Shown here: positions 10,263 to 60,540 of the stretch, piece after piece | How positions within the stretch are numbered: position 1 is the first letter of the stretch | Layout: every line of letters starts with the position of its first letter | Source: Aspidapion aeneum | Lineage: Eukaryota > Arthropoda > Insecta > Coleoptera > Brentidae | NCBI GenBank assembly: GCA_963576565.1 | Contig: OY755042.1 | Coordinates: 15,041,272-15,105,271 of the forward strand | DNA: 64,000 bases | Direction: 5' to 3' | Notes under the pieces: generated by a model | The model's input: only the letters and a program-made list of their open reading frames with translations | Database searches by the model: none | Told to the model about the DNA's origin: nothing | Made by a program: the position numbers and the translations under genes

Positions 10263-10537
10263 TTGTGTGTGATTAAGACCACACGGCAGAAGTGTAAACT
10301 TCAACAAGGCGAAATTAATAATACTGGCCCATAACATATTCTGCAAAGCGGACCGAACCGAACTCTTCTGTGTATTGGCCTTCATCTGCATCATCATATC
10401 GCTCGCTGCATGTTTCTCACAGTTAGTCGACTCGAGCCGATTTCACCCGAATGAGCGTTACATAGCCGAGCCTGACGGCTCAGTTGAATTCACTACCCAC
10501 CAAAACTGCTAAACGCGCCTAAAGAAGTTTACACTTC
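10263..10537 (-). mobile_element. Small TIR element (GAAGTGTAAACTTC family), copy C, interrupted
   Basis: Reverse orientation relative to copies A and B. GAAGTGTAAACTTC is at 10289-10302 and GAAGTTTACACTTC at 10524-10537. The conserved interior (AATAATACTGGCC, then TTCATCTGCATCATC) is interrupted by about 50 extra bases. These contain GGACCGAACCGAAC, and a second near-copy of the TGGCC flank follows. Copies A, B and D lack this insert. Confidence 0.8.
10354..10367. repeat. AACCG-type pentamer trace in a MITE insert
   Basis: GGACCGAACCGAAC, two pentamer units, lies inside the 50-base insert that distinguishes copy C from copies A, B and D. It is one of five or six places in this window where this pentamer marks a broken repeat. 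Confidence 0.6.
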
Positions 10538-11196
10538 AAAAACTACAAATATGTAAAACATCAATATTTTTATTTTTTGCACACTTAGTACTTAAAATTT
10601 TAACTCTACTCAGTGTTATATAATATAATGATTACTTAGTACCGAATACAAAATATCTGATACTCGAATAGGAAGTATCAGTATCTATTCGATACTTGCA
10701 AAAGGAATCGTTGCACACACAACTACTACTAAGTGCACGAATTAAAAGTGCCGCTAATCTGCTCTAACATGCAACGCGAACCGACGTGGCATGGGTCATC
10801 ACGGGGGTGCGGGCGGCATTGAGGCTGGTCTTGGGTATACGCGCCGTGCAGAAGGAAGGTTCAGATTCCATGTACTGTAAAATTCTATTGGGACATGTCG
10901 TTCTCTCTTTCTATATTTCGTAATTAGCATGCGACATAACATCAAGGGTGCATAGAATTTCGTTCCAGTAAATAAAAGCGTTGTTTGCATATATGTAGTC
11001 TTCCGTTTATGGAGAGTTTGAACACGAATACAAACACATACAACAGGTATTAATTCCTAGAGTATATTCCAGTCTTTAGTAAATTTCTTTTGGGATAATT
11101 ATGAATTAAATTAAGGAATGATCAAAGTTTAATATTTTTTTAAGTAAAATTTGGGAGTGCACGTGCACATGTGCACTTATGGAGAAACCGCCACTG

Positions 11197-11204
11197 GGTG
11201 GTTC
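11197..11204. repeat. 8-bp target duplication, right (GGTGGTTC)
   Basis: Exact match of 9887-9894. It marks the right boundary of the hAT-like insertion. Confidence 0.9.
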
Positions 11205-11880
11205 AAATATTGAACCGAACCGAACCGAACCAATCTAAGTTTTTAAAAACATCTTCTAGGGCCTGGTTAAATATTTTAGGGATAGATATTGTCTCCCCTT
11301 CTGACACCTCTTCTTATGTGGATTGGCTTAGTTCTTTCGTGGATTTTAATTGATATTGTTGCTTGACTATATATATTGGCTATTAAGTCTGTGTATATGC
11401 AATCTATTTGGCTATTAATTAAATATGCTTTTATTGCCCAGTGCTTAATGCTATCGGAAGCTTTTTCAAAGTGCATAAACGCAATATATATATTGGAATG
11501 TTGTATTTATTGGCAATTGGGATTTTCATGGTTAATAGGTGGTCAACTGTACTGAAACCTTATGGAAGGCTGCTTGTGGTTTTGATTAAGATCCGTCAAA
11601 TATTGTTGTTAATGTTTTTGTGAAAAGCTTATAAATTAAATTGAGAAGTTTTATAGGTTGATAGCTTTAGGTCTGCGCTATCGCCTTTCTTGTATAGAGT
11701 AATGGTTATTGATTACTTCCAGCCTCCTTGTTCAGGAGAATATGAAGGATATTAACTACAGTTTTACCACCGTATATTTCTGCCATTACTCGGTCTTTTT
11801 TAGCCTCCTATAATCACCTGAATTGTTCTAAGGAAGAACTAACTTTAGAACCCTAAACAAAACCTAACCCAAATCAAAAC
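11205..11880 (-). pseudogene. RTE-type LINE relic, reverse transcriptase core
   Basis: The minus strand reads, in broken frames, GFSTVDHLLTMKI, a degenerate phrase near FEKASDSIKHWAIKAY, IANIYSQATISIKIHE, RRGVRRGDNIYPKIFNQAL and EDVFKNLDW. This is RT motifs 2 to 4 of the RTE family, in the same order as the copy at 26026. It continues across the hAT-like element into 9130-9886. Near the element a 34-base piece present in the other copy is replaced by about 22 bases of AACCG pentamers. It is inactive. Confidence 0.85.
11213..11232. repeat. AACCG pentamer run at an RTE breakpoint
   Basis: Four tandem units of GAACC/AACCG. In the sister RTE copy the corresponding place (about 26730-26763) holds 34 different bases, so the run replaces deleted LINE sequence and does not belong to the LINE. 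Confidence 0.75.
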
Positions 11881-12872
11881 TAAATTTTATCGTAAGTGAA
11901 GCAAGTAGACGAAAACGTTTTGAATAAAATAGTCTTAGTAAGTCACGATGGTCAAAGAGTTCCTTGATGTTAACTTTGGGCATTTATGCTCAAAATGGTG
12001 CTTCGAAAAAATTTTGTGAAGAAATTGAAAGATCATGATAATTTTCTATGAAATGGAGAATGTTTAAGCTTCAGGTCACTAAGTAAGTGTTGAGTTGAAA
12101 TATGAATGTGCTACGGAGATAATAAAATACTACAGTTTTACAATATGTAAGCCTAATTTATAGATTTGTCTGCTATTAGAATCGAATGCTTGGTCTCACC
12201 CACTTTTTTAATGTCTTCATATTTTTCCTAAATTTGTAGAATACAAAAAAAACCGTGCGTTGTTTGGCAACTTCGTATGATTTAAAATCATGATTTAATG
12301 AACGACTTTCTGTCACAGTTTATAAAGCCCTCTGAAATTATGGGCTTTCTAGATAAGCTTAGTAAATTTTAAGTTGACATTTGAAAACTGGAAGATCGCA
12401 CATACATTAGAGATTGGTGTGTGTAAATAGTTGATCAATTTAAGAAACATTCTTATATTCTTTTAGTAATACCAAACAAATTTTAAATTTAAATAAAAAA
12501 TGAGTAAAACGTTACTAAACAGCGTTATAATTTGTATTTAAACAGTAAAAAAAAAACTAAAATAAAATATTTAGTGCGAAAAGGTCACTTTACCGCACTG
12601 GTGCAAAAAATATACATTACGGCACTCTTGTTTTTTTATGCGTGCGGTAAATTGACTATATTACACAAGTGTGGAAAAGTACAACATTCCGCACGCGAGT
12701 AGGAGAAATATCGATTTATTATAATTAGCCTTCTAAAAAGCGTTCTTAACATATTGGATTAAATTCACCTCTTTTATTTAATTTTCCTTTTTTTTAAATT
12801 TAACTGAGCTTTATTATATATCCAAAGGTCTGCAAAGAGTCCCTGGCGGATCTTGTACCATATCTAGAGTTT
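11881..12872. other. AT-rich stretch with a GTGCGG-rich island
   Basis: No gene is recognised. At about 12580-12710 the motifs TTACCGCACTG, GTGCGGTAA and TTCCGCACGCG recur in both orientations, which suggests a decayed small inverted-repeat element. Exact ends could not be found. Confidence 0.4.
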
Positions 12873-12983
12873 TCATTCCTCAAGCTGTACCCGTCTGGCA
12901 AAAAGATCCTCCTGCTCCTGGATCGTTTCCAAAATATCCCAAATGTTAAGTTTCCTCTTGATTCCTCTACATAAATCACGTCT
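12873..12983 (-). CDS. Candidate terminal exon fragment, unidentified
   Basis: On the minus strand a frame of about 35 codons ends with a stop and reads DLCRGIKRKLNIWDILETI then QEQEDLFARRVQLEE. It is preceded by a possible acceptor (CTAAAGTAG) and followed about 60 bases downstream by an AATAAA signal (complement at 12810-12815). The charged, helix-like composition differs from the Phe/Leu/Lys-rich random frames around it. I do not recognise the family. A plus-strand frame over the same bases is also open, so the strand is not certain. It could be the 3' end of a host gene, a retrocopy or a LINE tail. Confidence 0.25.
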   Translation of the reverse strand, partial: RRDLCRGIKRKLNIWDILETIQEQEDLFARRVQLEE

Positions 12984-13124
12984 CTACTTTAGAAGCCTGC
13001 TAGTGTTAGCTATTCAGATTTACATATTTGGTGTGTTGATTTCACACTTACCTCCATACCTGCAGTCGTCTTAGTAAATTAGGTACTCCTTGCATTTAGC
13101 AAGAGGTATAGCCTACTGCGGGCC

Positions 13125-13404
13125 CTAATAATCTGAGGGCGCGGCAGTGCCTCGCCAAGTTCGCGCGCCATAACCATCTTTTCTGGAAACATTTCAGCCG
13201 ATATTTGACCTACCTAACACTCTACTTCGGAATGAGCTACGAATCTCAAACTTTGCGTAGTCGTAGATCTCCATGGAGTTAACAACCCCTCTAAGTTTCA
13301 TGGAATTCCATAAAGTAGTAAAGTAGTTACGAAATTTCAAAAAACGTCGAAATTGCCACTCACCCACTGACTCACTCATGTATAGATCATCAATATTCTA
13401 CTGT
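13125..13404 (-). repeat. Composite repeat copy 1: conserved flank block
   Basis: This block recurs, inverted, at 19750-19990 and 41040-41330. Landmarks are GGTCAAATATGGGCTGAAATG, the phrase about ACTACTTTACTACTTTATG, and a short GAGT/CACT run (CTCACCCACTGACTCACTC) next to the satellite. A 61-codon minus frame spans it but is not preserved in the other copies, so it is treated as non-coding. Confidence 0.75.
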
Positions 13405-14570
13405 ACTTCCAGACATGCTACAAAGCTGAAATTTGGTAGACTGATAGAAATTATGACCAAACCCCTGGGAAAAATCAAAAAACCCCAAAATTTTAATTTA
13501 CTCCCCTCCCCTATACATTTAAAGTTATATAAAAGTAACATCGCCCACTTCCAGAAATGCTAGAGAGTTGAGCTTTGGCAGACTGATAGGAACTATGATA
13601 AAACTATAGGAAAAAATCAAAAAACCCCAAAATTTTAATTTACTCCCCTCCCCTATACATTTAGAGTTATGTTAAAGTAGCATTGCCCACTTCCAGAAAT
13701 GCTAGAGAGTTGAGCTTTGGTAGACTGATAGGAACTATGATAAAACTATAGGAAAAAATTAAAACACCCCAAAATTCTAATTTACTTCCCTCCCCTATAA
13801 ATGTAAAGTTAAGTAAAAGTAACATTGCCTACTTCCAGACATGCTAGAGAGCTGAGCTTTGGAAGACCGAAAAATTAAAACACCTCAAAATTCTAATTTA
13901 CTTCCTTCCCCTATAAATGTAAAGTTATGTAAAAGTAACACTGCCCACTTCCAGAAACGCTAGAGAGCTGAACTTTTTAAGACTGAAAGACAATATGATA
14001 AAACTATATAAAAAAATTTAAAAACACCAACATTTTAATTTACTTCCCTCCTATAAATTTAAATTTATAAAAAACTAACATTGCACGCTTCCAGAAACGC
14101 TAGAGAGCTGAGCATTGGAATGCTGATAGAAATTATGATAAAACCATGGGAAAAAATTTATAAAGTTCAATATTTTTATTTACTCTCCTCCCCTATAAAT
14201 GTAAAGTTATGCAAAAGTAACATTACCCACTTCCAGAAACGCTAGAGAGCTGAGCATTGAAAGACTGATAGGAACTATGATAGAACTATAGGACAAAATT
14301 TAAAAACATGACAATTTTAATTTATTTCCCTCTCCTATAAATATATTTATATAAAACTAACATTGCCCACTTCCAGAAACGCGAGAGAGCTGAGCATTGG
14401 AATGCTAATAGAAATTATGATAAAACCATGGGAAAAAATTTATAAGTCCAATATTTTCATTTACTCTCCTCCCCTATACATGTAAAGTTAAAGAGCTGAG
14501 CTTTGGAAGGCTAATAGGAACTACGATAAAACCATGGAAAAAAATTAAAAAACCTCAAAAATTTAAGTAA
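13405..14570 (+). repeat. Satellite array, about eight 141-bp units
   Basis: The marker ACTTCCAGAAAYGC falls at 13405, 13547, 13689, 13831, 13947, 14087, 14229 and 14369. This gives a unit of about 141 bp with one shortened unit of 116 bp and a partial last unit. Each unit contains GAGAGYTGAGCTTTGG, CTATGATAAAACTATAGG, an A-rich run and TACTCCCCTCCCCTATA. Copy 2 of the composite (19490-19750) has about two units and copy 3 (40900-41040) about one, so the array expands and contracts. Confidence 0.9.
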
Positions 14571-14656
14571 GGTATTGCAAAAGTTTTGAACAATATTCCG
14601 CATATTTTACTACTTTAAAAATTAAGTATTATCCAATTCCTTTAAAAAAGAAGTGA
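14571..14656 (+). repeat. Composite repeat copy 1: linker
   Basis: The 85-base linker with GTATTGCAAAAG and AACAATATTCCGCATATT joins satellite and fold-back. It is found inverted between the same two modules at 19381-19490 and 40810-40880, so the modules form a single transposing or co-amplified unit. Confidence 0.75.
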
Positions 14657-15030
14657 AATCATAACAAAAACATTTCATGTAAAAAAAGGCCAAGTACGCG
14701 AAAATGGCATTCCGTAAAAAGAATTGAGATAAAAGTAAAGCCAAGTTCTCCAATACAAATTTCAAAATGAAAGGTTCTTACTAGTTTGGAAATATTTTTC
14801 TAAACTTGGGTATTACGGCTGTAAATGACTCTTAGGCACAGTGCTAAATTGAACATAAAGAAGTTTGGTTGTAATAGCAAAGTTTTAAAAAATATTTCCA
14901 AACTAGTAAGAACCTTTCATTTTGAAATTTGTATTGGAGAACTTGGCTTTACTTTTATCTCAATTCTTTTTACGGAATGCCATTTTCGCGTACTTGGCCT
15001 TTTTTTACATGAAATGTTTTTGTTATGATT
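14657..15030. mobile_element. Fold-back element, copy 1, intact arms
   Basis: The left arm (14657 to about 14808) and right arm (about 14885-15030) are inverted copies with hardly a mismatch by eye. They start ATCATAACAAAAACATTTC and run through CCAAGTACGCGAAAATGG, GAATTGAGATAAAAG and CTTACTAGTTTGGAAAT. The about 75-base centre includes ATGACTCTTAGGCACAGTGC. It is non-coding; frames in the arms are mirror images of each other. Other copies are at 15897 (split by the jockey LINE), 40348 and 42135. Confidence 0.9.
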
Positions 15031-15896
15031 ACGTTTTCAAAAAATATTTGATACATTTAAATCGATATATTGTACCTACTGCGTCTGTCTGCTCGGGACA
15101 TTAAACCACACCGAATATTTGCGGTTTTAACGGCTTTTCTAAATAATTTTTTTTAAATTATTATTTTGTTTTTTTAAATTTTTTGTACCTAAACTCGTAA
15201 AACAAATGCCATTGCGTTTCTTCGTTTGGCGATTCTAAGAGAATCTAATTATCGCAGAAAGAAAAACAAACTATAAAATAGCTCCACTAACACGTAATCT
15301 TAAACTTCCTCTCGGTCTTCATTGTTAACAGGTTAAACTATGAAACAGTTAAATACCTACACGAAAAGTTTCCGTTATAGTTTATTTACTTTATATAATA
15401 GGTTCCCCTCTTAAATCTGAAAACATTAAAAATGCTGTGAATATACAGCAACAAACGACGTGTTAATGTAGGCCAGCGTAAAATATAGATCGTTATCTGG
15501 ATAGGCATTTTTGTTTCCCGTCTTTGAATGTTGCCTTACTGTGTTTTTATTAGCGAAGAAACAACGGTTCTAGTTTATTGGTAGCCTTTTGTCATTAAGT
15601 TCTTATACCCATATAATTTATTATATAGTGCATTAAAATATATTGGCAAAGGGGTTTTCTTTAAAGCACCGTCAGCTGCTGACTTGGCCTTGATGGCAAA
15701 TAGTTCGTTCACTTCAAGACACTTATTTGAATTGCCTGTAAAATTTATACTTCTTTCACTAAAGTCATTAGGGAAAATTGTGCGACTTTAAAATTCTTTT
15801 GCAAAATAATTATCGTAGTCAAGCAAAATTAATCATTAGTGAAATTTTTCAAGTATATTGTATCGAAGAATACTAATTAAAACATAAGAAAAGGTG
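15031..15896. other. Spacer between inverted copies of the composite repeat
   Basis: No gene or repeat is recognised. The stretch separates composite copy 1 (plus) from copy 2 (inverted). The whole 13125-19990 region could therefore be one large inverted structure, or two independent insertions. Confidence 0.45.
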
Positions 15897-16218: not shown

Positions 16219-19200
16219 CAGAACTGAGTAGCGCTAAGTGGTATCACCACGTTCCGCTACTGCGCTGGCAGTCCGGTTCCAACAATGAGTAACAGATAGC
16301 ATGATGGCGCCTCCAAGATCAAAATATTCCGGAGGTAAAATACCCGACCACTCGGATCTCCGGGCGTCGGGTGATCCTGGGGGTCCTTCATGCAAAGATA
16401 TTAAAAGAAGACCAAAAACTCAACTCAGAATTGATTTTAGCAATATAAGAGGATTAAGTACCAACATGAATTCAGTTCACCAACATCTTGAAGAACAAAG
16501 ACCTGACATCCTTGTTCTCACTGAAACTAAAATCAGTTCTGCAACACCTATTGTGAGCTATCTTTATCCCGGCTATGACCTACACCACCGATTTCGACAC
16601 AATTTTGGGATTTGTGTGTACATTAAAAATGACCTTTCATGTCATCGAGAGGAGAAGCTAGAACCAGCGAACCTCGATATCATATGGCTAAAATTCACCT
16701 CAAAGTCATCGACCAAGTTCATCTGCTGCCTCTACCGACCGCCAAGTAACACCGAGTATCAAAACTTTTTTGCGACATTATCCGAAAACTGTGATAGTAT
16801 ACAGTCTAACTATCCACATGCGGAAATTGTTTTTTAGGCGATTTCAACGTCCACAATATACCCTGGTTAAAACACCACAACAAAACAGATAATGAAGGCA
16901 GGGAAGCAGAAGCTTTTGCCATAAGTTGTGGTCTAACGCAGCTTGTCGATGAACCTACCCGTATCTCAGAAAGGGGTGAATTTGCAGCGCTTTTAGACTT
17001 GTTCCTAACTACAAATCCTGACTCGTACACAATTCAAGTAGATCCCCCACTTGGTTCATCCGATCATAAACTTATAATAACAAAGTGCGAAATGCTCATA
17101 CCACCAAGCCAACAATCACTTCCTCGTAAAATGTGGCACTATAAATCGGCAAAATGGAATTACCTTAAGCAGTTTTACCTGGATTTTCCATGGCAAGAGG
17201 TTTGCTTTAAAACAGCTGATCCCACTATCTGCTGTAATGAAATAACAAAAGTAATCTTATCTGGAATGGATGCATATATCCCACATACAATAAAACGCAG
17301 AGCAAATGCAAAACATTGGTTCAACGGCCAGTGTCAAACGGCTGTACAGAAAAAACACAGAGCATATAACCTTTGGAAACGAAAACAAACCGCTCACAAC
17401 CACACAGAATTTATAGAAGCCAGAAATAGTTGCAAAATTACTATTGACGCCGCCAAAGAAACATACAATCAAAGAATAAAAAACAGGTTGCTGAATTGTC
17501 CAAGTAGTTCTAGGTCCTTTTGGTCACTTGCAAAAGCTGTTGGATCAAACTTCACCAAGTCATCCATACCACCACTTACAGATAAAAATACTCACTTAGC
17601 CACAACATCAGAGGAAAAAGCCAATATGCTGGCCAAAATCTTTTCCTACAACTCAAACCTAACAGTGCCAAATGGAAAAACTCCACCGTTCATTGGAAGG
17701 GTTTCCCACAGTATGCCAGAGGTACCCTTTTGTCACAGAGAAATACGAAAATCCCTTAAAAAGTTGGATACAAACAAAGCAATGGGTCCAGATGGCATTC
17801 CCGCGATAGTACTCAAAAATTGTGCTAACGAACTCACCCCAACTTTCGCTAAATTATTCAATTTATCTTACAGGCAAGGAGTATATCCATCATCATGGAA
17901 GTCTGCCGCAGTACAACCTATTCCAAAGAAAGGAAAAAAGACAGATCCGTTAAACTATAGACCAATTGCTCTACTTCCGGTGATATCAAAAGTAATGGAA
18001 AGAGTTGTGAACAATCACCTAACCAAGTACTTGGAAAAGTACAAAATTATCAACGACAAGCAATACGGATTTCGAAAATATAGGTCAACTGGCGATTTAC
18101 TTACATACGTCACTCACTTATGGCAGAAAGCGATTGAGTTACGGGGCGAAACAAGAACAATTGCCTTAGATATATCAAAAGCATTCGATAAAGTCTGGCA
18201 TGAAAATCTCCTCAACAAGCTCAAAGCAATGGGATTGTCGCCGAAACTTTGCACTTGGTTTGAAAGTTACCTTAAGGATAGATCCATTTATGTTGCACTG
18301 GATGGCCGGAACTCCAACTCTTACCAAATAAATGCTGGTGTGCCACAGGGAGCAATCCTTTCGCCAACACTTTTTCTGATTTACATAAATGATCTCATAG
18401 ATAAAACAGTAAATCCACTTTATTGCTTTGCAGATGATGGCAATGTAGTCTCCTCAGTCATACCACCCACTCAGTGTCTATCCGCACGTGAATTCCATCA
18501 TCTTAGACTAACTCAAATATCGCAGATAAATAACGACCTGGAGATAATAGAGGACTGGGGCAACAAAAACCTTGTACAGTTTAACGCGCAGAAAACCCAA
18601 GCAGCCCTGTTTTCAAAAAAGACCAGCACCGGTGAGCCAAACATCATGTTATCTGGAAGTGCTGTCACATTGCAGAGCCAGTTGAACATCTTAGGAGTCA
18701 CTGCAGAGACCAACATGTCTTGGCACAGTCACGTGGCAGATATAGCTAAAAGGGCGTCCCAAAAGCTTGGGGTGCTGTTTCGTACAAGACATCTGTATAC
18801 ACCAAGCCAACTGCTGACACTCTACAAAGCCCAGATTCGACCAACTATGGAGTACTGCTCACATATATGGAGTGCGGCACCCAAACATACCTTAATGCTT
18901 TTGAACACCGTGCAAAAACGAGCTATCAAGCTGATCAATGACCCCGCACTTACCCGTAGCTTGGATAGTCTCGAACATCGAAGAACTGTGGGCGATCTAT
19001 CTCTCTTCTACAGGTATTATCACGGAAAATGCTCTGAAGAGTTGGCACATATGATCCCCCCGGGAGTAGCACCTACTAGGCGAACACGTCAAACAGACGG
19101 TAACCATCAATTTACTGTCAAAATAGAGGCACCAAGAACCTCGTTATATCAGAATTCATATCTCTGGAGAACAGCATCGCTGTGGAATAAACTCCCTGCG

Positions 19201-19332
19201 ACAGTTTTCCCTGCAGGTTACAACCTGAACCGTTTCAAAACCAACACACACCAACATTTCCGCGCACTGGCCGCTTCTCGAGCGTAATAGGGATCCCCTT
19301 GCGAGTGCGCTTAACCGTAAAAAAAAAAAAAA
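16219..19332 (+). mobile_element. Jockey-like non-LTR retrotransposon, copy 1
   Basis: About 3.1 kb ending in GCGCTTAACCGT plus an A run of about 14. The shared start is CCAGAACTGAGTAGCGC. Copy 2 (27237-30513) has about 65 more 5' bases, so copy 1 is slightly 5'-truncated. It encodes an apurinic-type endonuclease followed by a reverse transcriptase. No ORF1 (gag-like) protein is seen. It sits inside fold-back copy 2 with no obvious target duplication; a few target bases seem lost. The high similarity to copy 2, allowing for that copy's damage, suggests recent activity of the family. Confidence 0.93.
16301..19287 (+). pseudogene. Endonuclease-reverse transcriptase of jockey-like LINE, one frameshift
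   Basis: The first frame (16301-16837) starts MMAPPRSKYSGGK and carries the endonuclease: DFSNIRGLSTNMN, LVLTETKIS and CCLYRPPS. It stops at a TAG because the T run at 16830-16835 has six Ts; copy 2 has seven and stays open. After the shift come the LGDFN phrase and, in the frame from 16999, GSSDHK (residues 19-24). RT motifs follow: NKAMGPDGIPA, NYRPIALLPVISKVMERV, LDISKAFDKVWHENL (catalytic Asp about residue 391), GVPQGAILSPTLF and FADDG (residues 477-481). A thumb-like region (PTMEYCSHIWSAAPKH) completes the protein, which ends with a TAA/TAG pair. FADDG replaces the commoner Y/F-ADD-D/T context. Total about 995 codons, normal for a LINE ORF2. The clade (jockey versus CR1-like) is inferred by eye. 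Confidence 0.92.
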
Positions 19333-22990: not shown

Positions 22991-23917
22991 TTAAATAAAC
23001 CCCTTTGATAATGTTAATATCTATGCTAGCATTAATAAATCTGTAATATTTTTCTGAACTTAATTTTATTTTGGTTTACCTGACGAATGATGTACATATT
23101 TTGCTATAGTTAATAATATAACTGAGTCTTACCTAAAATTTTGTAAAATCATATAAATTCTTGTAAGATAAGTCAACGACAAAAGACATGGAAGGATGAG
23201 CCCACAATGTCGGCATTGCACCATTTTAAAGTAGGCTTAAATTTGTATCTCTAAAAATTGAATTAAGACATAATTGGTGAGACCGTCTATATATCCCTTA
23301 GAAAATTAAACTAGTTTCCTAAGGTCTATCCTAATTTATCCGGTTGTTTGCCCATAATCAACAAGACTAGAATCAGGATTCCGTCGTAAACACAGCAAAC
23401 ATTTTACCTAAAAGGGATAAATCCTCCGCGAACAAGAACTTAAATCTCCAACATGCTACACACGCCTACATGTTGCAGTTGTTACGAATTATACTGCAAC
23501 TTGTTCTTGTCATGTAGTACTGATTTTTTCTGGTACTTGGTACGACTTACAAACACACAGCCTTTAGAAACTTATTGTTAGCGACAACATCAAAGGTCTA
23601 GACTGACCATATCTGGTCAAACAAGCATGAAATGTTGTTTCTCTTGCCATAGACTTCATGCAGAGCATAGGGCAAATAAAAACAAAACTTATCGATGTAC
23701 TTTACTTGCAAACATTTAGAAATTATTTTTACATTTATACCCACCCGGCTGCATCATTTAATAGCAAATTAATGGATCTATAGCAGAGACATGAGAGAGG
23801 AACAGATTACCCTTCCTCAATGCGCTAATGTTGAGATTTCTTAGGCGACCATTTTTACATTTAAGGACGTCACTACTGGCAGCGTATAGTCCATTTAATT
23901 AACACTGAGAAAAAAAA
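22991..23917. other. No gene recognised
   Basis: A mixed AT-rich stretch without protein-like frames. No dispersed repeat shared with the rest of the window was found. Confidence 0.5.
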
Positions 23918-24128
23918 TTGTGTGTGCTTAAGACCACACGGCAGAAGTGTAAACTTCAACAAGGCGAAATTAATAATACTGGCCTCATCTGCATCATCAT
24001 ATCGCTCGCTGAATGTTCCTCTCACAGTTAGTCGACTCGAGCCGACTTCATCCGAATGACCGTTACATAGCCGAGCCTGACGGCTCAGTTCAATTCACTT
24101 CAAACGCGCCTAAAGAAGTTTACACTTC
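23918..24128 (-). mobile_element. Small TIR element (GAAGTGTAAACTTC family), copy D
   Basis: GAAGTGTAAACTTC at 23944-23957 pairs with GAAGTTTACACTTC at 24115-24128. The GTGTGCTTAAGACCACAC near-palindrome precedes the left end. The interior is intact at AATACTGGCCTCATCTGC, where copy C carries an insert, but lacks the CACCAAAACTGCT segment near the right end. Confidence 0.8.
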
Positions 24129-26025
24129 AATAATGAATCACTAAAATGATCATTTTCCTAAAAGGACTGAACGTATGCAAAACCCTCTGTTCTTCGGTTT
24201 TAGTGGATAACATTTTCAGGAAAATAATGCACCTACCTATTAAAAATGTCACCATCAAAAAATATAAAACAATGCGCTCCACAAAAATAAAAGAACCATT
24301 TTAAGCCGTGCGTGTTGGCTGCCTACTATATTACCGGAAGTAACTATCGATTGATTTTAATAGACTAGGCAATGTTGATGTGGTTAGATAACGAGAAGTG
24401 ATTAAAAAAACAAGCGTGTTAAGATTTTTCTTCTAATACTTTTAATAACTAAAAATTTAAGTATTGATCCCTTTGCAATCTTGTAGTAGGCAAAAAAAAT
24501 AAATGAATTTTTCTTTTTAATTATGACTATTCTGTTTGGTAAGCTGGTATCGGAAAAGAATTTAGGAGAAACCACAAAATGGCCGACTGACAGATCCCCA
24601 TGATGTCGCCAAGAAATTTAGATGCGCACTCATCGAAAAGCTATCATTGCCCCCCCCCCCCGTCTATGTCTTTGATCCATTGAAGACCTGATGGTTTTCT
24701 AGGGCATTACCTTTATAGTGCAACAACCTTTTGGAAGGAAAAAGTTAGTATTAGTATGAAAACTAATGGAAATAAAAGAAAATCTATCGCAGGAAAAAAT
24801 AAAATTAGACTTTTAGGTCCAAGTTATTTGAGTGGAATAGATTGAGTAATACTTTACACGGTTTTTAGCAAAACTAGGTCTCCTATCAAAGAAAGCTAAA
24901 AAATTCTTCAACTTGGGCAAAAATAATTTTTGCACATAACCTAAAATTTTCCGATAAAACTTGATAGAACCGGTTTTTTTTTATTTTTTGATTTTTATCT
25001 TAATTTTTTTTTCTGTTGCCCAATGTTTGTGCAAACCCACCCATTTATGTACTTAGCACTTTATTTTATCGATTTTAACCTTTTATTTTTATTTAAAACC
25101 TAAAAAAAATTTCACCGGGAAATGTTCAAGTTCTGAATGTTTTTTTTTAAACAGTGGTTGTTTTTTTCGCTAATTTAAGGTTTAAACTCAAAATATGTTA
25201 AGATCGATATTTCGATTTAAAAAAATTATGATTTTTTATGTACACAAGCGTTTTTATCAATTTTTTTTTCAAAAATTTAAAAAATCAAAAATGACCAAAT
25301 CGTTTTTCAATTTTTTTTGGAAACTTTTAGGTTTTTTTTATAAAAAACAGTCTTGACAAAAGTTGTACTGCCTTTGTTATTAGCTATAACTTTTGTATTT
25401 AACTTTTTTTTCCTTTTTTGCCTTTTTAAAAAGTCACTTGTGAAAAAAAATCAAACCTTTTAAAATCAGCAAATTTGAAGCTGGCCGGACATTCATCAGG
25501 TATGATTTGCTAAAGTCAAAAAGAATATACGATTTAAAAATTATTAGAAATTTTAATTTAAAAAAGTTTAAAAGTAACTTTATATATTTTTTAAATATAT
25601 CTAATAATGAATTAAATAAACATGTAAATTTCCAGAGATGAATTTTTTTAAATTCACTACCTTTTTTTAAGAGCTATTTATTTAGAAGACTAATTCTGTT
25701 TTTCACTGTATTTATTGAAAGTATGAAATATTCACTTTTCGGACAATTTTTGCGATTTTTATTTTGTAGTTAGTTTTCTAGCTTTTTGCTTTTAGAGTAC
25801 ATTTAATAAAGCACATAAAAAAGTGCATTTTTGTCCATTAGCAAATTGTCCTTGCTTCTCTCAGGCTTTAAATTTATTAGGGAGATAAAAAGTGGCACTA
25901 TAAATACTAGGTTTAAATAATAAACTTCATATACCAGTGTAGTACATCTTTTTAGATTTTTAATAATTATACTACACAGAATATTTTCGCGGACTTTATT
26001 CCAATAAATATTTTTAAAAATTTTA
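24129..26025. other. AT-rich stretch, no gene recognised
   Basis: Long A and T runs dominate (24900-25700), and a C run lies at about 24653-24661. No conserved motif or repeat boundary is recognised. Confidence 0.5.
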
Positions 26026-26487: not shown

Positions 26488-26557
26488 CTACTGGGCAAAA
26501 AAAGCATTTTCTAATTAATTAATTACCAAATAGATTACAGATACAAAGGCTTAATAG

Positions 26558-26560
<3 letters not shown>

Positions 26561-26594
<34 letters not shown>
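26561..26594. repeat. AT dinucleotide run, 17 units
   Basis: Uninterrupted AT repeat inside the RTE relic, at the place where the sister copy reads TATATATTGGC. It probably grew from that short seed. Confidence 0.95.
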
Positions 26595-26598
<4 letters not shown>

Positions 26599-28067
26599 AA
26601 GCAACAACATTAATCAAAATCCACGAGGCAACCAAGCCACTCCGCATAATAAGAGGTGTCAGACTAGGTGAGACAATATTCAATAAACTATTTAACCAGG
26701 CCCTAGAAGATGTTTTTAAAAACTTAGACTGTGAAGAAATAAGCATCAAAGTAAGCGGACAATACTTAAACGACCTATATGCTGACTATCGCTTTAATAA
26801 CAGATAAGAAAGAAGAACTGATAAAAAAGCTGGAAGAACTAGATACAGCAGTGGAAAATATAGGTTTGCGTATGAACTATACTAAAACTACAATCATACC
26901 AAACACAGATAAAGATATCACGATCAGAATAAATCAAGAAAAAATAGAAGTAGTGACATATTTTATAGGACAAATTTTATTAAACTATAAAAACCAAACA
27001 GTTGAAATCAAGAAACGAGTAAGATTGGTGTGAGCATCATTCGGTAATTTAAGGTATATATTAAAAATTAAAGAATATCCTCAGTTCTTCAAAACGAAAG
27101 TGCATTAACAATGTATCCTTCTTGTACTAACTCATGGATCCTACACCTGGACACTTACAAAATCAAGCATGGATAAAGTAACAATGGAATGGAACGACAA
27201 ATGTTACATGTAAAGCTAACAGAGAAGAAAAGTAATTTTTTTTACGGTTAAGCGCACTCGCAAGGAGATCCCTATCACGCTCGAGAAGCGGCCAGTGCGC
27301 GGAAATGTTGGTGTGTGTTGGTTTTGAAACGGTTCAGGTTGTAACCTGCAGGGAAAACTGTCGCAGGGAGTTTATTCCACAGCGGTGCTGTTCTCCAGAG
27401 ATATGAATTCTGATATAATGAGGTTCTTGGTGCCCTCTATTTTGAAAGTAAATTGATCAGCTTGATAGCTCGTTTTTGCACGGTGTTCAAAAGCATTAAG
27501 GTATGTTTGGGTGCCGCACTCCATATATGTGAGCGGTACTCCATAGTTGGTCGAATCTGGGCTTTGTAGAGTATTAGCAGTTGGCTTGGTGTATACAGAT
27601 GTCTTGTACGAAATAGCACCCCAACCTTTTGGGACGCCCTTTTAGCTATATCTGCCACGTGACTGTGCTAAGACATGTTGGTCTCTGCAGTGACTCCTAA
27701 GATGTTCAACTGGCTCTGCAATGTGACAGCACTTCCAGATAGCATGATGTTTGGCTCACCGGTGCTGGTCTTTTTTGAAAACAGGGCTGCTTGGGTTTTC
27801 TGCGCATTGAACTGTACAAGGTTTTTGTTGGCCCAGTCCTCCATTATCTCCAGGTCGTTATTATCTGCGATATTTGAGTTAGTCTAAGATGATGGATTTC
27901 ACATGCGAATAGACACTAAGTGGGTGGTATGACTGAGGAGACTACATTGCCATCATCTGCAAAGCAATAAAGTGGATTTACTGTTTTATCTATGAGGTCA
28001 TTTTTGTAAATCAGAAAAAGTGTTGGCGAAAGGATTGCTCCCTGTGGCACACCAGCATTTATTTGGT

Positions 28068-28684
28068 AAAAGTAATGGAAAGAGTTGTGAACCTAACCAA
28101 GTACTTGGAAAAGTACAAAATTATCAACGACAAGCAATACGGATTTCGAAAATATAGGTCAACTGGCGATTTACTTACATACGTCACTCACTTATGGCAA
28201 AAAGCGATTGAGTTACGGGGCGAGACAAGAACAATTGCCTTAGATATATCTAAAGCATTCGATAAAGTCTGGCATGAAAATCTGCTCAACAAGCTCAAAG
28301 CAATGGGATTGTCGCCGAAACTTTGCACTTGGTTTGAAAGTTACCTACCGAACCGAACCGAACCGAACCGAACCATCCAGTGCAACATAAGTGGATCTAT
28401 CCTTAAGGTAACTTTCAAACCAAGTGCAAAGTTTCGGCGACAATCCCATTGCTTTGAGCTTGTTGAGCAGATTTTCATGCCAGACTTTATCGAATGCTTT
28501 AGATATATCTAAGGCAATTGTTCTTGTCTCGCCCCGTAACTCAATCGCTTTTTGCCATAAGTGAGTGACGTATGTAAGTAAATCGCCAGTTGACCTATAT
28601 TTTCGAAATCCGTATTGCTTGTCGTTGATAATTTTGTACTTTTCCAAGTATTTGGTTAGGTTCACAACTCTTTCCATTACTTTT
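28068..28684. repeat. 279-bp inverted duplication inside LINE copy 2
   Basis: 28068-28346 is the reverse complement of 28406-28684 with only about one mismatch seen by eye (AAGTACTTGG versus AAATACTTGG). Both arms share a 6-base deletion (GTGAACCTAACC) that copy 1 lacks, so the duplication arose from copy 2 itself, after its insertion or late in its life. The 59-base centre begins with five AACCG units and then holds the unduplicated LINE sequence ATCCAGTGCAACATAAG. About 17 LINE bases next to the break (CCGGAACTCCAACTCTT in copy 1) are missing. Confidence 0.92.
28347..28374. repeat. AACCG pentamer run at the palindrome centre
   Basis: Five tandem AACCG units (TTCGG on the LINE strand) join the duplicated arm to the original sequence. 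They are absent from LINE copy 1. This is the longest such run in the window. Confidence 0.85.
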
Positions 28685-45279: not shown

Positions 45280-45281
45280 TA

Positions 45282-52130: not shown

Positions 52131-52167
<37 letters not shown>

Positions 52168-52168
52168 A

Positions 52169-52223
<55 letters not shown>

Positions 52224-52725: not shown

Positions 52726-52979
52726 ATTAGCTCACACGTACACTATAACTGTAGTACCTAGTGTGAGCTTTGGGGCCCATATATTGGCAGAGTATTTTAA
52801 CGGATCTAAAATATTAAAGAATGACAGACTTATTTTCTTAGTTCCTAATATTTTACACTAAGAAGAAAATGCTGGAAAAGAACTCTGGTTCATCTTAAGC
52901 GTTGGAAAAAAACTTCTGACTGAAAATTTTTAGATTTTTGCCCTTGTTTAACTTATATAAAATACTGGATAGATCTACC

Positions 52980-54745: not shown

Positions 54746-55242
54746 GCCTTCCTCTATCTACTTTCGCCTTTTATTTATTTATTTATTTAAACACACCAGC
54801 TTTGACAAATTATCCTCCAAAATATTAAGGGCTCATCACCTACGCCACTGGTAGTAACAGTAGTTCTTACTACATACTATCGCTTTAATTTGGCCGAATG
54901 CTATCGACCAAGGGAAGAAACGGTTATAAAGTGAAACGAAACTAGCTAATTAGTTATTGTTTTTTAAACAATCAAACGGTATCCTTACGAGCAAAGATCG
55001 TACTTAATAGCGGTCGTTAATCAAAAACTATCGCAACGATCTTTAAAGAAAGTTTTTGCAATTTATTCGACTTTTCAGTGCAAGAACCAAGTTAATAGTG
55101 CCTATTAAAATGTCAAATAGTTTAAACGAATATAAGAACTTTTGTATTTATCTAAACCTTATTATGCAAAAAATTAATAAAACAATAAATATAACTAATA
55201 AAAAATTTTAAAAAATAGTTCAAAAATATTATCAGACTTAGA
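54746..55242. other. AT-rich stretch, no gene recognised
   Basis: Nothing beyond random AT-rich sequence is seen. Confidence 0.45.
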
Positions 55243-55305
55243 GTATGTATGACATATTTGTACTAAAGTATTTCTTTAAAATATGTCATACATACAGGGT
55301 CTCTA
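55243..55305. repeat. Hairpin plus solo GGGTCTC end
   Basis: GTATGTATGACATATTT and AAATATGTCATACATAC form perfect arms around about 20 bases. The next bases, CAGGGTCTC followed by TA, equal the end of the element at 57769-58755. TTTCTTTAAAATATGTC also matches that element's subterminal sequence. This looks like a solo or truncated end. Confidence 0.65.
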
Positions 55306-55565
55306 GACTGACCCAACTTTAAACAGAAAAACAAGGGGAAGGATTAGTTGTCTAGCAGGTTTTCCACCGAAGATGCCAGAATGAATTTTCAGGGTCTTGT
55401 AACCCAAGAAGGCGAGCTTTATTTTTAGGGCAAATTTCATTGGATAAGATTGTATTTAAAAAAGGCTGACATAAACTTAAATAATAATACAAAGTATTAG
55501 TTAATAATTAAAAAAAAATTAATTCTTCATCATTTTCCGCAAAAGAATTGAAGATTTAATCAGGC

Positions 55566-55706
55566 AGTAGTAAAGTTAGAATTGAAGAAATATCATTAGA
55601 TGATCCAAGAAATATAGAAAAACAGAGGATAGAATCACTTATTCCAAGATCATCCAATTTTATGTCTACTGACGACCGAATCCATGCAGAGCTTCTGTCT
55701 TTTTTT
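55566..55706 (+). other. Possible short coding remnant, unidentified
   Basis: A frame of about 44 codons reads VRIEEISLDDPRNIEKQRI, ESLIPRSSNFMSTDDRI and HAELLSFF before a stop that coincides with TAACCGAACCG. The charged composition is protein-like, but I recognise no family and see no intron donor. It may be a transposon protein fragment cut at the AACCG site. Confidence 0.3.
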
Positions 55707-55707
55707 A

Positions 55708-55720
55708 ACCGAACCGACCT
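55708..55720. repeat. AACCG pentamer trace
   Basis: AACCGAACCGACC, just over two units, directly ends the coding-like stretch upstream. The intact counterpart of this locus is not in the window, so a breakpoint here is only suspected. Confidence 0.4.
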
Positions 55721-55789
55721 GGTTAAGCAGGTTTAATTATAGTTTTACAATTCATACAGGGATACAACGAAAATAAATGAATACATGAA

Positions 55790-56192
55790 CGATCTTCACA
55801 CTACATATATAAACAGTTTTTGTAAATATCTTAGGAACGGAAGCACCTACAAAGTGGAAAACCACATATTGATGCTCCGCTAAGAATTTTTCAAGTTTTT
55901 AACTGTCAAAAACCTGTCGTTAGCATTAGTAAATTTTGACCAAAATCTATTTAGCTGTTTCCAGTAATGTTGTCTATTTTACCTAAAAATTTTATGTAAA
56001 TCGGTTTGGCGGTTTGGGAGCTGTCGTGGGCCGGAGAGACAGACACACACACGAACAGACGAGACGTCACGACGATATTGCTAAGATAGGTCAAAATTCA
56101 CCCAAATAACACATCTTTCGTGTTAACTTAAAAAAAAATCGTCGAAAATAATACCTACTCTATCCATTACTGCGCGGACTAGGAAGGTAAAG
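55790..56192 (-). mobile_element. TACCTTCCTAGC element, inverted partial copy
   Basis: The right boundary GACTAGGAAGGTA (56178-56190) is the element's left end in reverse. Then TTATTTGGGTG, a TGTGTCTGTCTC-type run and CCAAACCGATTTAC, all as complements, lead to TTCTTAGCGGAGC and a phrase near TTAGGAACGG. The far end is missing. Confidence 0.7.
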
Positions 56193-56884
56193 AAGAATTG
56201 ATGACAGTAACAATTATAACAGGAGTATCTATTAATATTCACTTTAGGTCAAGGGATTTACAGCAAAGGTCAACAATCACTTTTCGCGCATGTCTTCGAT
56301 GATTATACACACCATGTCTTGTTATTGTAAATACCGTATATTTTGTTAGCTTATAGCTGTCAGCCATATGCATAGAAACCCATAAACTATGTGGCAAGGA
56401 GAGACGGATAATATGCGTGGCACGTTCATTCTTCGAACTGCATTTTTGTAAAATGCATAACAACGAATCTTGTTCTGTCTATTCGTCTGTTGCGCGGCCA
56501 GTTTTTGACACATACGATGCAATAAAAAGACAAAATCAACGTACAGTAACTGCCAGTTAAACTTGCCATTAAAACTTTATCGACGATTTCGATGCAGAGT
56601 TTATGGATCTTCGGGCTAAAACTTACGAAGGTCGTTTTTATGTGAGATTACTGACCCTCCACTTTAATTTATCTCAAATTATTAGATAAGACGAAGCGCA
56701 ATTTTTAAATATCTTTAGACTAATTATAAGAAATTAATTGCTTAAAACATCTCAACAATATTTTACGTCTTTTTTACTTTACCGAAAACTTCCGGCCTAT
56801 AAATGGATGTGCATCATTTAAAGCTTCTAAAAGCACAGTTACCATATGACCTGATATGTTCAAATCATATTCGTTCATTCCTTA
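56193..56884. other. No gene recognised
   Basis: A 74-codon minus frame (56239-56463) has an unusually even amino-acid mix (HIIRLSLPHSLWVS) but no recognised domain or splice context. Confidence 0.4.
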
Positions 56885-57398
56885 TAGAATTTTAGCTTGC
56901 AAATGCGATAAATCGTTTAAAAGATAATTTAATTTTCTACAAAAAGTTGATTACCTTTTGAGAAATTGACATAAAACTGAATAATTTCGGTTTATTTTGC
57001 TTATACTATGGAAATACATAGGAAACGGGTGTACTGCCAACACTTCAGGGTTCGTTTCTCAGTAAGGGTACTACCCAGATAACTCACTTATATCTCATTT
57101 TATAGGCTATAAGTTGGTATTTCTTTATGCTATTACAGATTTTCTCAAAAATAAGCACTTTCGAAGTTAAAGGTTACTAATTAAAAAAATTGGTAAAAAA
57201 CCAAAATAGCGGCGAAATGTTTAGCATCATAACTCGAAAACTTATCGTCTCGTAGAAAAATGTGTAACAAAGTTTTTGTAAGAAATTTTATTGTCTTCAA
57301 CTTTTGTCCAAACTAAAACTTTTTTTTCTAAAGTGTATGTACAAGGGCAAAGTAATTAAGAAAAAAACAATTTCGTGCACACTAAATCCAATATGGCG
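56885..57398 (-). mobile_element. GCTTGCAAAAGGTG family, inverted partial copy 3
   Basis: Matches, in the opposite orientation, 31590-32040 of copy 1: ACATAGGAAACGGGTGTAC, AACACTTCAGGGTTCG, TTTCTCAAAAATAAG, GGCGAAATGTTTAGC and GTGCACACTAAATCCAATAT. It stops abruptly at ATGGCGAATG, where AACCG pentamers begin. In copies 1 and 2 the family sequence continues past this point. Its beginning (TAGAATTTTAGCTTGCAAA at 56887) is joined to a different segment, so it is rearranged internally. Confidence 0.7.
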
Positions 57399-57401
57399 AA
57401 T

Positions 57402-57412
57402 GAACCGAACCA
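57402..57412. repeat. AACCG pentamer trace at a repeat breakpoint
   Basis: GAACCGAACC lies exactly between the truncated end of the inverted-repeat copy and an unrelated tandem duplication. Confidence 0.6.
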
Positions 57413-57528
57413 AAACGGATACTCAATTTTTTTTTAGGAATTTTGTACCGTTTTGGGTTGCTTAAATAACCGAAACGGATACTCAATTTTTTTTTAGGAA
57501 TTTTGTACCGTTTTGGGTTGCTTAAATA
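57413..57528. repeat. 60-bp tandem duplication
   Basis: AACGGATACTCAATTTTTTT through GTTTTGGGTTGCTTAAATA occurs at 57415-57468 and again, unchanged, at 57475-57528, with a 60-base period. Each copy is preceded by AACCNAAACGG-like bases. It follows the AACCG trace directly. Confidence 0.9.
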
Positions 57529-57766
57529 GGATAGAAGATAAATAAAAGTCCTGCTGTTTTACAGGACCAAGGGACAAAAAAGTTGGGTTAAATCCCTTAA
57601 AAGAGGAGAATTTCCTGATTCCTATCTTAAATATGCCAGAGTTTCTCTAAAACATTTTTAACAGGAAAAAAGCAAAATTAATACTATAATTTAGGCAATA
57701 ATATATTTAGTGCTTAATTTGTCTATATCAGTAACTTAACTCCATTTTCTAACTGCATCATAGCAC
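57529..57766. other. AT-rich stretch, no gene recognised
   Basis: No supported feature is visible between the tandem duplication and the next element. Confidence 0.45.
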
Positions 57767-57768
57767 TA

Positions 57769-58755
57769 GAGACCCTGTATGTAAGACAGATTTTAAAGAA
57801 ATGGAGACGCGACAAACCAATCAAAGTCACTGAAACTCATATTTTTTGTTTATGCAAGGCCAACACAAAAATAGAGGCCACGACCCTGAAAAAATCAGCT
57901 GTTCTCCCGGAGCTGAATTTTACATTGGGTCTTATAGGAGGTCAGACGTTTTTTTATGATATTTTCAAAATGGCACTACAGATTTCCGCAAAATTTCAGT
58001 GAAATATTCTCAGACACCATCCTGATATTCCACCAAAGGTTTATAAGGAAGCAACATGATTAAAAGGTTAAAATCTTCAAGATTTAGCATTCCTTATTTT
58101 GAATTCAAATTACCCGCCATGTACCACATGCCAACTGTTATATTTGACATGTATTTGACTTTGTCATATGTGATTGTCACATTCGCTTCTGCTTTAAACT
58201 TAATTTTTGTGTGAGCTATTGAAGCGGCTATGAAAAATTAGGGCTTACTATACATTAAAAAAAATTGTTCTGCCAGAATAAAGTAAAAACAATCTAAAAA
58301 ACGGCTTTATTTAAAAAAAATCAATTATCCATGAACCGTCATTTCAACTTCAATATTTTCAATCAATCAATCAAGACAATCAGCTGTGTCGTAACGTGAC
58401 CATCAAAAAAAAATCAGCCCCGGATGTGACGTCAACAAAGTGGAGGATCGTGGACCGTCCATTTTGATAGCCCTGGTTTATGTTATTTCCTTGTCAAGTT
58501 GATTGGCGTTTTACAAAAGTTTTTGTTGGCGGTGAGTGACATCAATCATCATGCAAAATAAAACAGACAGGTTTGTTCATCACTCCCGGTATATGTTTTG
58601 TTAGAAATTGTTTATTTTTACTTTTCGACGCCTATAAATTAACCAGGATGGAAGGTGCATTTCTCTGTAAACAACGCTTAAATATAAAGGACCGATACCT
58701 CCCTCCTTTAAGTTTGTCGCGTCTCTATTTCTTTAAATGTTAAGTACAGGGTCTC
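57769..58755. mobile_element. TA-flanked TIR element with GAGACCCTGTA ends, about 990 bp
   Basis: The left end GAGACCCTGTATGTAAGAC, then TTTTAAAGAAATGGAGACGC and GACAAACC, pairs with GTTTGTCGCGTCTCTATTTC, TTTAAATGTTAAG and TACAGGGTCTC at the right, about 50 bp imperfect. TA is present on both sides (57767-57768, 58756-58757). The interior has no transposase but includes TGACGTCAAC and CAGCTGTG stretches and corresponds, inverted, to 36097-36935. The solo end at 55295 belongs to the same family. Confidence 0.82.
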
Positions 58756-58757
58756 TA

Positions 58758-59150
58758 TATAACACTATTTTTAAAAATCATTAATTCACAGAAAAAAAAA
58801 ACAAAAATAAACACTGGGAATAGGCACAGAAACCAAAAAACAACGCTCTGTCATCCATGCCTGAAAATAATCACGTGACCAAAAATAACCAATGCTTTTT
58901 GTACCAAAAACTGATTTTAAATCACTTCCGTCACATAGCGAACACCAGTTACTAAAATACCAAATTCGTTACATGATAATTTTTTCCAAGGGGTAAAAAA
59001 AGGAGATTCGTCTGTAAAATTGGAAGCAAGTTAGGTATGTTCGTGTATTTTGTTTAGTCGATGCATTCTAGTTCTTGTTGGTTCCCTTTTTTTCGCTCTC
59101 TACTACTTATTAATAGTACAAATTAAAAACTATTTTAAAAAACCTTATGA
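58758..59150. other. No gene recognised
   Basis: No repeat or protein-like frame is identified. Confidence 0.45.
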
Positions 59151-59624
59151 TCACAGATTTCTTAACCACCAACTGGATTGCTGCCAAATATCGCTGAAAA
59201 ATTTAAAAATAAATGCACCGATGAGCTCATCGAGAAGAATAATCGGGTTCCTAAATGCATCGGTGAAACATCGATGAAATCCATCAGGTTTCGGTAGTTG
59301 CGATGGATTCCGCCGATTCACCAATCGATGCCACCAAAACTCACCGACACTGGCAGATGCTGAGCAATTCCTGATGAATTTGATTTGTGTGTCATTTGTC
59401 ATTCGAATCAGCTGTATATTTTTATATACAAAAATTTGATCCTCGCCCTCTACCTTGATGCCCACCAAAATAGTTTCCTCCGTTTCTTTCATTTCCATTT
59501 TTGTTGTGTAGGAAAAAAATATATTTTTAGAAAAAACAGATACATTTCTATATAATTTCATCAGGTTTCTTTTTATTTTTCGATGGCTCATCAGCATTCC
59601 ATCGATGAATATCCGATGGGTCAC
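59151..59624 (-). CDS. Unidentified 157-codon open frame rich in ATCGATG-type palindromes
   Basis: The longest open frame in the window outside LINEs and simple repeats. Protein-like parts are KMEMKETEETILVGIKVEGE, DQIFVYKNIQLIRMT and FWWHRLVNRRNPSQLPK. The DNA is unusual: CATCGATG, GATGAGCTCATC, CCATCAGGTTTC and ATCGATGG recur on both strands at its two ends (59210-59330 and 59560-59630). It may therefore be the interior of an inverted-end element with an accidental frame. No known domain, intron or poly(A) signal was recognised. Confidence 0.25.
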   Translation of the reverse strand: MTHRIFIDGMLMSHRKIKRNLMKLYRNVSVFSKNIFFSYTTKMEMKETEETILVGIKVEGEDQIFVYKNIQLIRMTNDTQIKFIRNCSASASVGEFWWHRLVNRRNPSQLPKPDGFHRCFTDAFRNPIILLDELIGAFIFKFFSDIWQQSSWWLRNL

Positions 59625-59897
59625 TTGTCATTTCTTAACAATCTAGATTCTATTGATAAAAAAAACCGGATAAATTTAGAGATTCTCCCCAGCATGTGTT
59701 TGACGTATGACCCCGCTTCTGTTGGCTGTTTGCATCACTGAAATAGAGGTAGGCGCGTTGCTTTTAGGGTTTGGTTAGGTTTCTACCTTCCGCACCCAAA
59801 CCACCGCTCCGTGGGCTTTACAACAATTATTTTAATCGATTATTAATGATCCCACCAACACTGACTAACCTGTTAACAGACCCAAAATTGTCTGGAC
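59625..59897. other. No gene recognised; likely part of the 254-bp unit element
   Basis: The sequence becomes GC-richer from 59690 and leads into the direct repeat at 59898. A 72-codon frame (59771-59989) crosses the boundary and is not conserved in the second unit. Confidence 0.35.
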
Positions 59898-60245
59898 GAA
59901 AGTTAAAACCACATAGTTTTAACAAGTTCCTTACGAAAGCATCAAGCCATCAGTATATTGCAATGTCGTTAGGGGTATTTTCCCTCTGAGTAGTTGTTTC
60001 TGTTGGTTCTACATGGAGCTATCGCCTGCATTCACTTGAAGATGGCCCAAGAAGGCCGAAACCGGTCGTGGATGAACATGGATCACTGTTCCTGCAGCCT
60101 GTCAGGAAGTGTTCCAAATAAGGATGTCATATACTTGTAATCGACGTTGCAGAAAGTGAAAATCACATAGTTTTAACAAGTTCCCTACGAAAGCATTTAA
60201 CCATCAGTCTAATTCAATGTCGGTAGGGGTATTCTCCCTCGGAGT
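59898..60245 (+). repeat. 1.4 copies of a 254-bp unit with hammerhead-like motif
   Basis: 59898-59991 (GAAAGTTAAAACCACATAG to TCCCTCTGAGT) is repeated at 60152-60245 with about a dozen differences, an offset of 254 bases. Between them, CACTTGAAGAT, stem GGCC (loop CAAGAA) GGCC, then GAAACCGGTCGTG (60034-60070) has the layout of a degenerate hammerhead core, as at 50761-50801. Tandem units of this size with such a motif resemble animal retrozyme or Penelope-related repeats. The hAT MITE at 60246 interrupts the second unit, so the original copy number is unknown. Confidence 0.5.
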
Positions 60246-60497
60246 CAGTGGCGGATCCAGGGGGGGGGGGGGCACTAGTGGCACTTGCCTCCCCCCCCCC
60301 CGAGAATTTTTTGAATATACAAAAATGAGTAAAATGTAAAGTTTTTGCTAATAAAAATTCAAAATTTTGGCTTGCGGCGCATGAAAGTGTTTAGTGTTAT
60401 TATCATCAAAATTACAACCACTTTTAAATTATCCTGAATTTGTAGCCGTTTTTTACCAACAGAGAATGTCACCTAAAGTGCCTCCCCCCCTCCCGGA
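60246..60497 (+). mobile_element. hAT-like MITE (CAGTGGCGGATYCAG family), copy 3, right end lost
   Basis: Starts CAGTGGCGGATCCAGG and follows copy 2 through GAGAATTTTTTGAATATAC, TTGCGGCGCATGAAAGTG and CAACAGAGAATGTCACC to the C-rich run. The expected right end (GAGAAGCACCTCTGGATCC) is missing. The run is followed by GGACCGAACCGAACACC and further C runs. The left flank is CTCGGAGT; no matching right duplication is found. Confidence 0.88.
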
Positions 60498-60540
60498 CCG
60501 AACCGAACACCCCCCCCCCCGAACCAAACCCCCCCCCCCC
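60496..60540. repeat. AACCG pentamers mixed with C runs at the broken MITE end
   Basis: GGACCGAACCGAAC, a C run, CGAACCAAA and another C run replace the normal hAT end. Homopolymers make this a difficult place to sequence or assemble, so an artefact is possible. Confidence 0.55.

Follow-up and report, generated by a model that had tools for sequence, protein, structure and literature searches.

Introduction

Telomeric repeats inserted at chromosome breaks are already known from mammals and other vertebrates. In the accessible parts of two mammalian studies, interstitial telomeric sequences (ITS) at breaks have ancestral bases in register with the telomere repeat at 77% of informative loci in mouse, 75% in rat, 80% in human and 67% in chimpanzee (Nergadze et al. 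2007, PMC2246262), and ITS insertions have bases in register in 31 of 40 cases (Santagostino et al. 2020, PMC7215372). TERC-flanked ITS are reported for vertebrates in the accessible text of PMC8537989, and for insects that of PMC9693754 gives cytogenetic ITS cases and mentions healing by new telomere addition in Planococcus lilacinus. Here we analyse a 64-kb stretch of the beetle Aspidapion aeneum (C5:15041272-15105271, the window; genome 1.286 Gb in 149 contigs), in which short tandem runs of AACCG, or TTCGG on the other strand, interrupt repetitive elements. We propose that the clean runs are probably scars of double-strand breaks, at which telomerase would have extended one exposed 3’ end by a few TTCGG units before the break was rejoined.

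As far as the accessible parts of PMC2246262 and PMC7215372 describe them, mammalian ITS are likewise short arrays of the species’ telomere unit that unbroken copies lack; filler, a duplication or a small deletion accompanies them, and ancestral bases are in register with the repeat. The runs described here differ in their insect host, in the unit TTCGG, in the use of paralogous rather than orthologous empty sites and in one fold-back inverted duplication. Extra sequence beside the run, as at window position 10352, is shared with the vertebrate TERC-ITS (PMC8537989, accessible text). In yeast, according to the accessible part of PMC7467729, a broken 3’ end can take either of two competing routes, fold-back inversion or de novo telomere addition, although one fold-back inversion there underwent telomere addition as well, which resolved it in a secondary rearrangement; here, in contrast, both stand at one junction in a wild genome. 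The motif itself forms the telomeres of the earwig Labia minor, where it likewise points outward, and three other earwigs have extended arrays of it (Lukhtanov 2025, PMC11829193). Interstitial (TTCGG)3-4 is called rare in L. minor, whereas it is common in the genome studied here; L. minor has 7 chromosomes and 604.5 Mb (PMC11937785, accessible text), against 11 large contigs and 1.286 Gb.

In the cited literature, telomerase-assisted break repair has so far been argued from vertebrate genomes. An insect host, comparable abundance and a fold-back example are described in no title or abstract start among the matches listed, a coverage outside which most subscription papers fall.

The terminal repeat and its interior copies

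A sequence-only reading of the window had named TTCGG arrays at scaffold ends as a test of its idea, and such arrays stand at 9 of the 22 ends of the 11 large contigs. AACCG continues for kilobases at 6 of 11 left ends (C1, C2, C3, C5, C6 and C10; first 10 kb read) and CGGTT is found at 3 of 11 right ends (C4, C5 and C6; last 2 kb read), so oriented that the arrays point outward, as in telomeres. TTCGG is the telomere repeat of this genome. The window occupies an interior chromosomal position (15.04-15.11 Mb of the 123 Mb of C5), and its runs, whose unit is identical to the terminal repeat, are ITS. At the inner telomere edge we also observed a variant unit, AACCGTGCCGT, and its kin (L009, L010, L011, L013 and L018; L-numbers denote individual genome pieces or places read outside the window).

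Seven runs of the AACCG/CGGTT class, each of at least 10 bp, lie in the window, where base composition would give 0.16. Of the 32 pentamer classes with three G/C, 26 have no run of that length there, and the next two classes have 4 and 3. When mismatches are allowed (score of at least 11), AACCG gives 5 matches and the remaining 31 classes give 7 in total, 5 of which overlap the 28347 run itself; the two longest runs, of 28 and 20 bp, are unmatched among those 31 classes of equal G+C content. The pentamer runs exist, and they greatly outnumber the chance expectation. All six that the sequence-only reading named are present, at coordinates that shift by 0-2 bases. Its claim that an intact sister copy proves the pentamer foreign at the first five sites stands for 10352, 28347 and 60497, by half for 11212 and weakly for 57402; in the list of six offered for telomerase, two sites are therefore weak and one other is half shown.

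A run inside a fold-back inverted duplication

The 28-bp run at 28347..28374, the best of the window sites, with its G-rich TTCGG strand on the minus strand, stands at the centre of an inverted duplication within a reverse-transcriptase element. The left arm (28068..28346, plus strand) and the reverse complement of the right arm (28406..28684, minus strand) are 99.6% identical (278/279), and the alignment places an unduplicated loop (28375..28405) between the run and the right arm. The right arm is collinear with an unbroken paralogous stretch of the same element (17895..18443, plus strand), which belongs to a frame at 16810-19287 with Pfam RVT_1; RVT_1 is also matched on both pieces of the 28347 element. 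Arms and paralog together fully bear out the earlier description of this site as a foreign pentamer at the centre of an inverted duplication. Because both arms have 4 substitutions in common against the paralog (98.2-98.6% identity, 6 gap columns per comparison), the duplication postdates the separation of the copies. Against the paralog, about 11 bp are missing, near 18306-18316 as judged from alignment coordinates. To the right of the run the sequence resumes at CCATCCAG, whose CC belongs to the ancestral sequence and at the same time fits the register of the run, and the outer left junction has AA in common, a 2-base overlap.

Addition, snap-back synthesis and end joining account for all parts of this site, and their order was likely as follows. 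After a break in the retrotransposon, TTCGG units would have been added to the right fragment at its minus-strand 3’ end. The extended end would then have folded back onto its own strand, with 279 bases copied by snap-back synthesis, before end joining to the left fragment over the AA overlap. Read in this way, the site ties telomere addition to fold-back inverted duplication, outcomes that are usually regarded as alternatives.

Runs elsewhere and the register of their junctions

AACCG runs are as dense in 13 interior pieces of 4 kb each (52 kb, at self-chosen round coordinates) as in the window. These pieces hold 6 AACCG runs of at least 10 bp against 0.16 expected, compared with 4 of AACCA and 1 each of AACCT and AACCC. 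Three of the six are not clean scars: two lie in an inverted-repeat region with degenerate GGTTN units (L044), and one (L049) in a sequence related to the terminal inverted repeat (TIR) family of L012. A further two (L045 and L051) have no readable ancestor. The 22-bp run of L048 lies in the same family of miniature inverted-repeat transposable elements (MITEs) as the run at 10352, at a different position in the element; its sisters read CAGTTCAATTCACT where L048 reads CAGTTC(GGTTC)n, which places GTTC in register.

A wider sample came from exact 23-bp runs of the form T|ACCG...AACC|A, which occur at 24 places genome-wide. We read 23 of these by eye and left out one that lies 1.6 kb from another. 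Eleven are clean (L055, L056, L058, L059, L061, L064, L066, L067, L070, L073 and L076), five belong to the TIR family (L063, L065, L069, L071 and L072), six lie in longer arrays (L054, L057, L060, L062, L068 and L075) and one (L074) is a degenerate tract in a reverse-transcriptase-like repeat. L055 reads GGAT(ACCG...AACC)ATAGC where three sisters read GGATCACCATAGC, a telomeric gain that has 3 nt in register and came with the loss of 1 bp. The runs of L056 and L064 begin inside an element that is preceded by poly-C in its relatives L022 and L012, with CC in register; at that place a third relative (window 33343, minus strand) lacks both the poly-C and the run. L067 and L074 hold runs at nearly the same place in two related reverse-transcriptase-like repeats, with different junctions.

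On the explanation that we favour, a double-strand break would expose a 3’ end with bases in register with the telomere repeat, the TTCGG units would be the work of telomerase and not of some other enzyme that copies telomeric DNA, and end joining would afterwards close the break. Runs that interrupt repeats with unbroken sisters, together with bases in register on the primed side, support an addition of the telomerase type. Paralogous unbroken copies without the run were found for 10352, 28347, 60497, L048 and L055. Register was scored by eye as the ancestral bases that match the repeat at the junction, against an unbroken paralogous copy, and was readable at seven events. On the side that telomerase would prime, it amounts to 2 nt at 28347, 1 at 11212, 4 at L048, 3 at L055, 2 at both L056 and L064 and 0 at L067; on the opposite side, where readable, it is 0 at 28347, L048 and L055 and 1 at L067. 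At least 1 nt is in register on the primed side in 6 of 7 events (binomial at 0.25, 0.0013) and at least 2 nt in 5 of 7 (binomial at 0.0625, 1.8e-5). Counting L056 and L064 once gives 5/6 (0.0046) and 4/6 (2e-4), respectively. The in-register bases on the extended strand are GG, GGT and GTTC. The telomerase-like addition at double-strand breaks that the sequence-only reading had put forward is thus supported by the terminal arrays, by the genome-wide excess of runs and by register at six of seven events.

The alternative that survives best, although we consider it unlikely, is that telomeric DNA already in existence (fragments or extrachromosomal telomere circles) was captured or copied during break repair, or that a polymerase such as Pol theta switched template into a telomere, in either case without telomerase acting at the break. 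Such repair would fit the extra filler on both sides of the run at 10352, as in templated insertions, and the templated inverted copy that 28347 also holds. Capture of a duplex fragment predicts no polarity, however, whereas the telomerase-primed side has register in 6 of 7 events and the opposite side in one of the four where it could be read, albeit in a small sample.

Several observations weigh against telomerase addition. L067 has no base in register on the predicted side, and the fold-back junction at 28347 shows no clear microhomology. The ancestor is in each case a paralogous copy rather than an orthologous empty site, and is diverged for 11212 and L067. Four sites at which register is unreadable were left out of the seven, namely 10352 and 60497 (filler, poly-C), L074 and L051. 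The seven events are a small sample in which L056 and L064 may share an origin, and L055, L056, L064 and L067 were drawn from a class selected by its boundary letters. Right ends of runs at AACC are in excess (470, against 174 and 83 for the neighbouring phases), as primed addition would lead one to expect, but degenerate AACCN arrays break at the same phase and confound this excess, so that we do not base the mechanism on phase. Finally, 12 of the 23 places read lie in arrays or other repeats and are not clean scars.

These same 12 places, made up of the TIR family with AACCG units in its interior and of the longer or degenerate arrays, are what favours a second alternative, in which the runs were carried by mobile or tandem repeats containing telomere-like units and were not made at breaks. 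We judge this improbable as an account of the clean runs: the printed flanks of the other 11 places hold no such units, and 28347, 10352, 60497, L048 and L055 lie in unrelated repeats whose sisters lack the run. The TIR family is nevertheless a separate source of AACCG runs. It has GGATCCTAGAGG-type inverted ends and an interior of telomere-like AACCN units (L012:9280-9580; L063, L065, L069, L071 and L072; L049). Longer interstitial AACCG arrays, some of them degenerate, also occur far from contig ends (L054, L057, L060, L062 and L068).

An assembly or gap-closing artefact, the alternative that the sequence-only reading had itself offered, is very hard to credit. Several sites do lie within repeats, but there is no N in the window or in the 10 checked interior pieces (of 13), both strands are near equal, run lengths vary and junctions such as that of L055 are exact to the base. 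Ordinary microsatellite growth from chance seeds, which the short and perfect runs resemble in their youthful look, can be set aside with similar assurance, as other pentamers of equal composition behave differently in the window, the ancestors of L055 and L048 offer no repeat seed beyond 3-4 bases and the 28347 run is tied to an inverted duplication.

Genome-wide abundance

One exact 18-bp boundary class has 470 matches genome-wide, compared with none for the reversed pattern and 52 for TTAGG in the same shape; the excess therefore belongs to the present telomere motif. Six boundary classes of exact 16-19-bp runs total 4279 matches, with none for the reversed pattern in each, and a plain 20-mer without boundaries gives 97,006, which telomeres supply in part or for the most part, against 1,613 reversed. 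A small number of the exact runs belong to telomeres; C3, for instance, has 6 within its first 8 kb and C10 has 3 close to its start. About half of the 4279 may lie in arrays or the TIR family, by extrapolation from the 23 places of another class. The enrichment that the sequence-only reading had asked for is therefore present as an excess of runs, while its comparison of junctions with unbroken unique sequence was covered by sampling. By the counts made here this beetle has more such sites per genome than mammals, which generally have far fewer.

The six named window runs all read AACCG on the plus strand, which had suggested an orientation bias such as healing of the centromere-bearing fragment would leave. 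This idea was rejected, as the strands are balanced genome-wide (242/228, 534/567, 451/449 and 763/788 per class) and mix in every quarter of C1 (78 places, one class).

It is possible, though we hold it only tentatively, that in this lineage telomerase regularly takes part in the repair of germline breaks and has left scars by the thousands or tens of thousands, frequently at G-rich or fragile spots of transposable elements; it might also feed fold-back duplication, and the filler may preserve copies of telomerase RNA. Abundant scars in multicopy repeats amount to many internal empty sites, so that no related species is needed and polarity, register and template phase can be tested within a single genome. 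The replacement of TTAGG by TTCGG might likewise be dated from the scars, which could also aid the search for the telomerase RNA. At least 16 of the 52 TTAGG-class matches fall in three tight AACCT clusters (C7:7858942-7860661, C9:1211286-1212742 and C6:80768308-80774602), which may be satellites or remnants of the older telomere motif of insects.

Other sites in the window

The 20-bp run at 11212..11231 (minus strand) directly abuts, on its right, a repeat resembling a long interspersed nuclear element (LINE). Homology to the relative of this repeat at 26490..26731 (minus strand, from alignment) begins immediately after the run, starting from 26731, on the right side; Pfam gives the sister RVT_1 at sub-threshold level only. 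The break proposed here is accordingly borne out on the right, while the left homology and the claimed replacement of 34 bases were not confirmed.

Three further runs are weak or not scars. The 10-bp run at 57402..57411 (minus strand) exists as described, but a sister has AGCCGACCC at the equivalent place where the window copy has AACCGAACC, and the latter may therefore be a diverged stretch of the element rather than a scar. The 11-bp trace at 55707..55717 (minus strand) is likewise present, without a sister copy to reveal a break. A 10-bp CGGTT run at 79..88 (plus strand), absent from the earlier list, is part of a repeat, as it is present in the sister L027, and is probably not a scar.

The 12-bp run at 60497..60508 (minus strand) lies within a poly-C tract, at the point where a MITE has lost its end. 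Two sisters read on past the tract, whereas here the run comes next and unrelated sequence follows, in agreement with the original interpretation. At L056, L064 and 60497 alike, the run takes the place of a poly-G/poly-C tract that MITE-like elements carry in relatives. It is as if G-rich tracts broke often and primed telomerase. CGG stands to the left of both the 60497 and the 10352 runs, a conceivable trace of telomerase RNA that would arise by chance in about 1/64 of cases.

The 12-bp run at 10352..10363 (minus strand) is contained in a 51-bp insert of a MITE-like repeat (10325..10375), composed of filler, telomeric run and filler, with TGGCC at both junctions. As had been proposed, the run is foreign to the element: three aligned sisters in the window lack the insert (3190..3429 and 2965..3196, minus strand; 23910..24133, plus strand). 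At the same point of the MITE, after AATAATAC, L042:2460-2566 holds an unrelated AT-rich insert of about 100 bp, and the sharing of this point by two inserts suggests a fragile or targeted spot.

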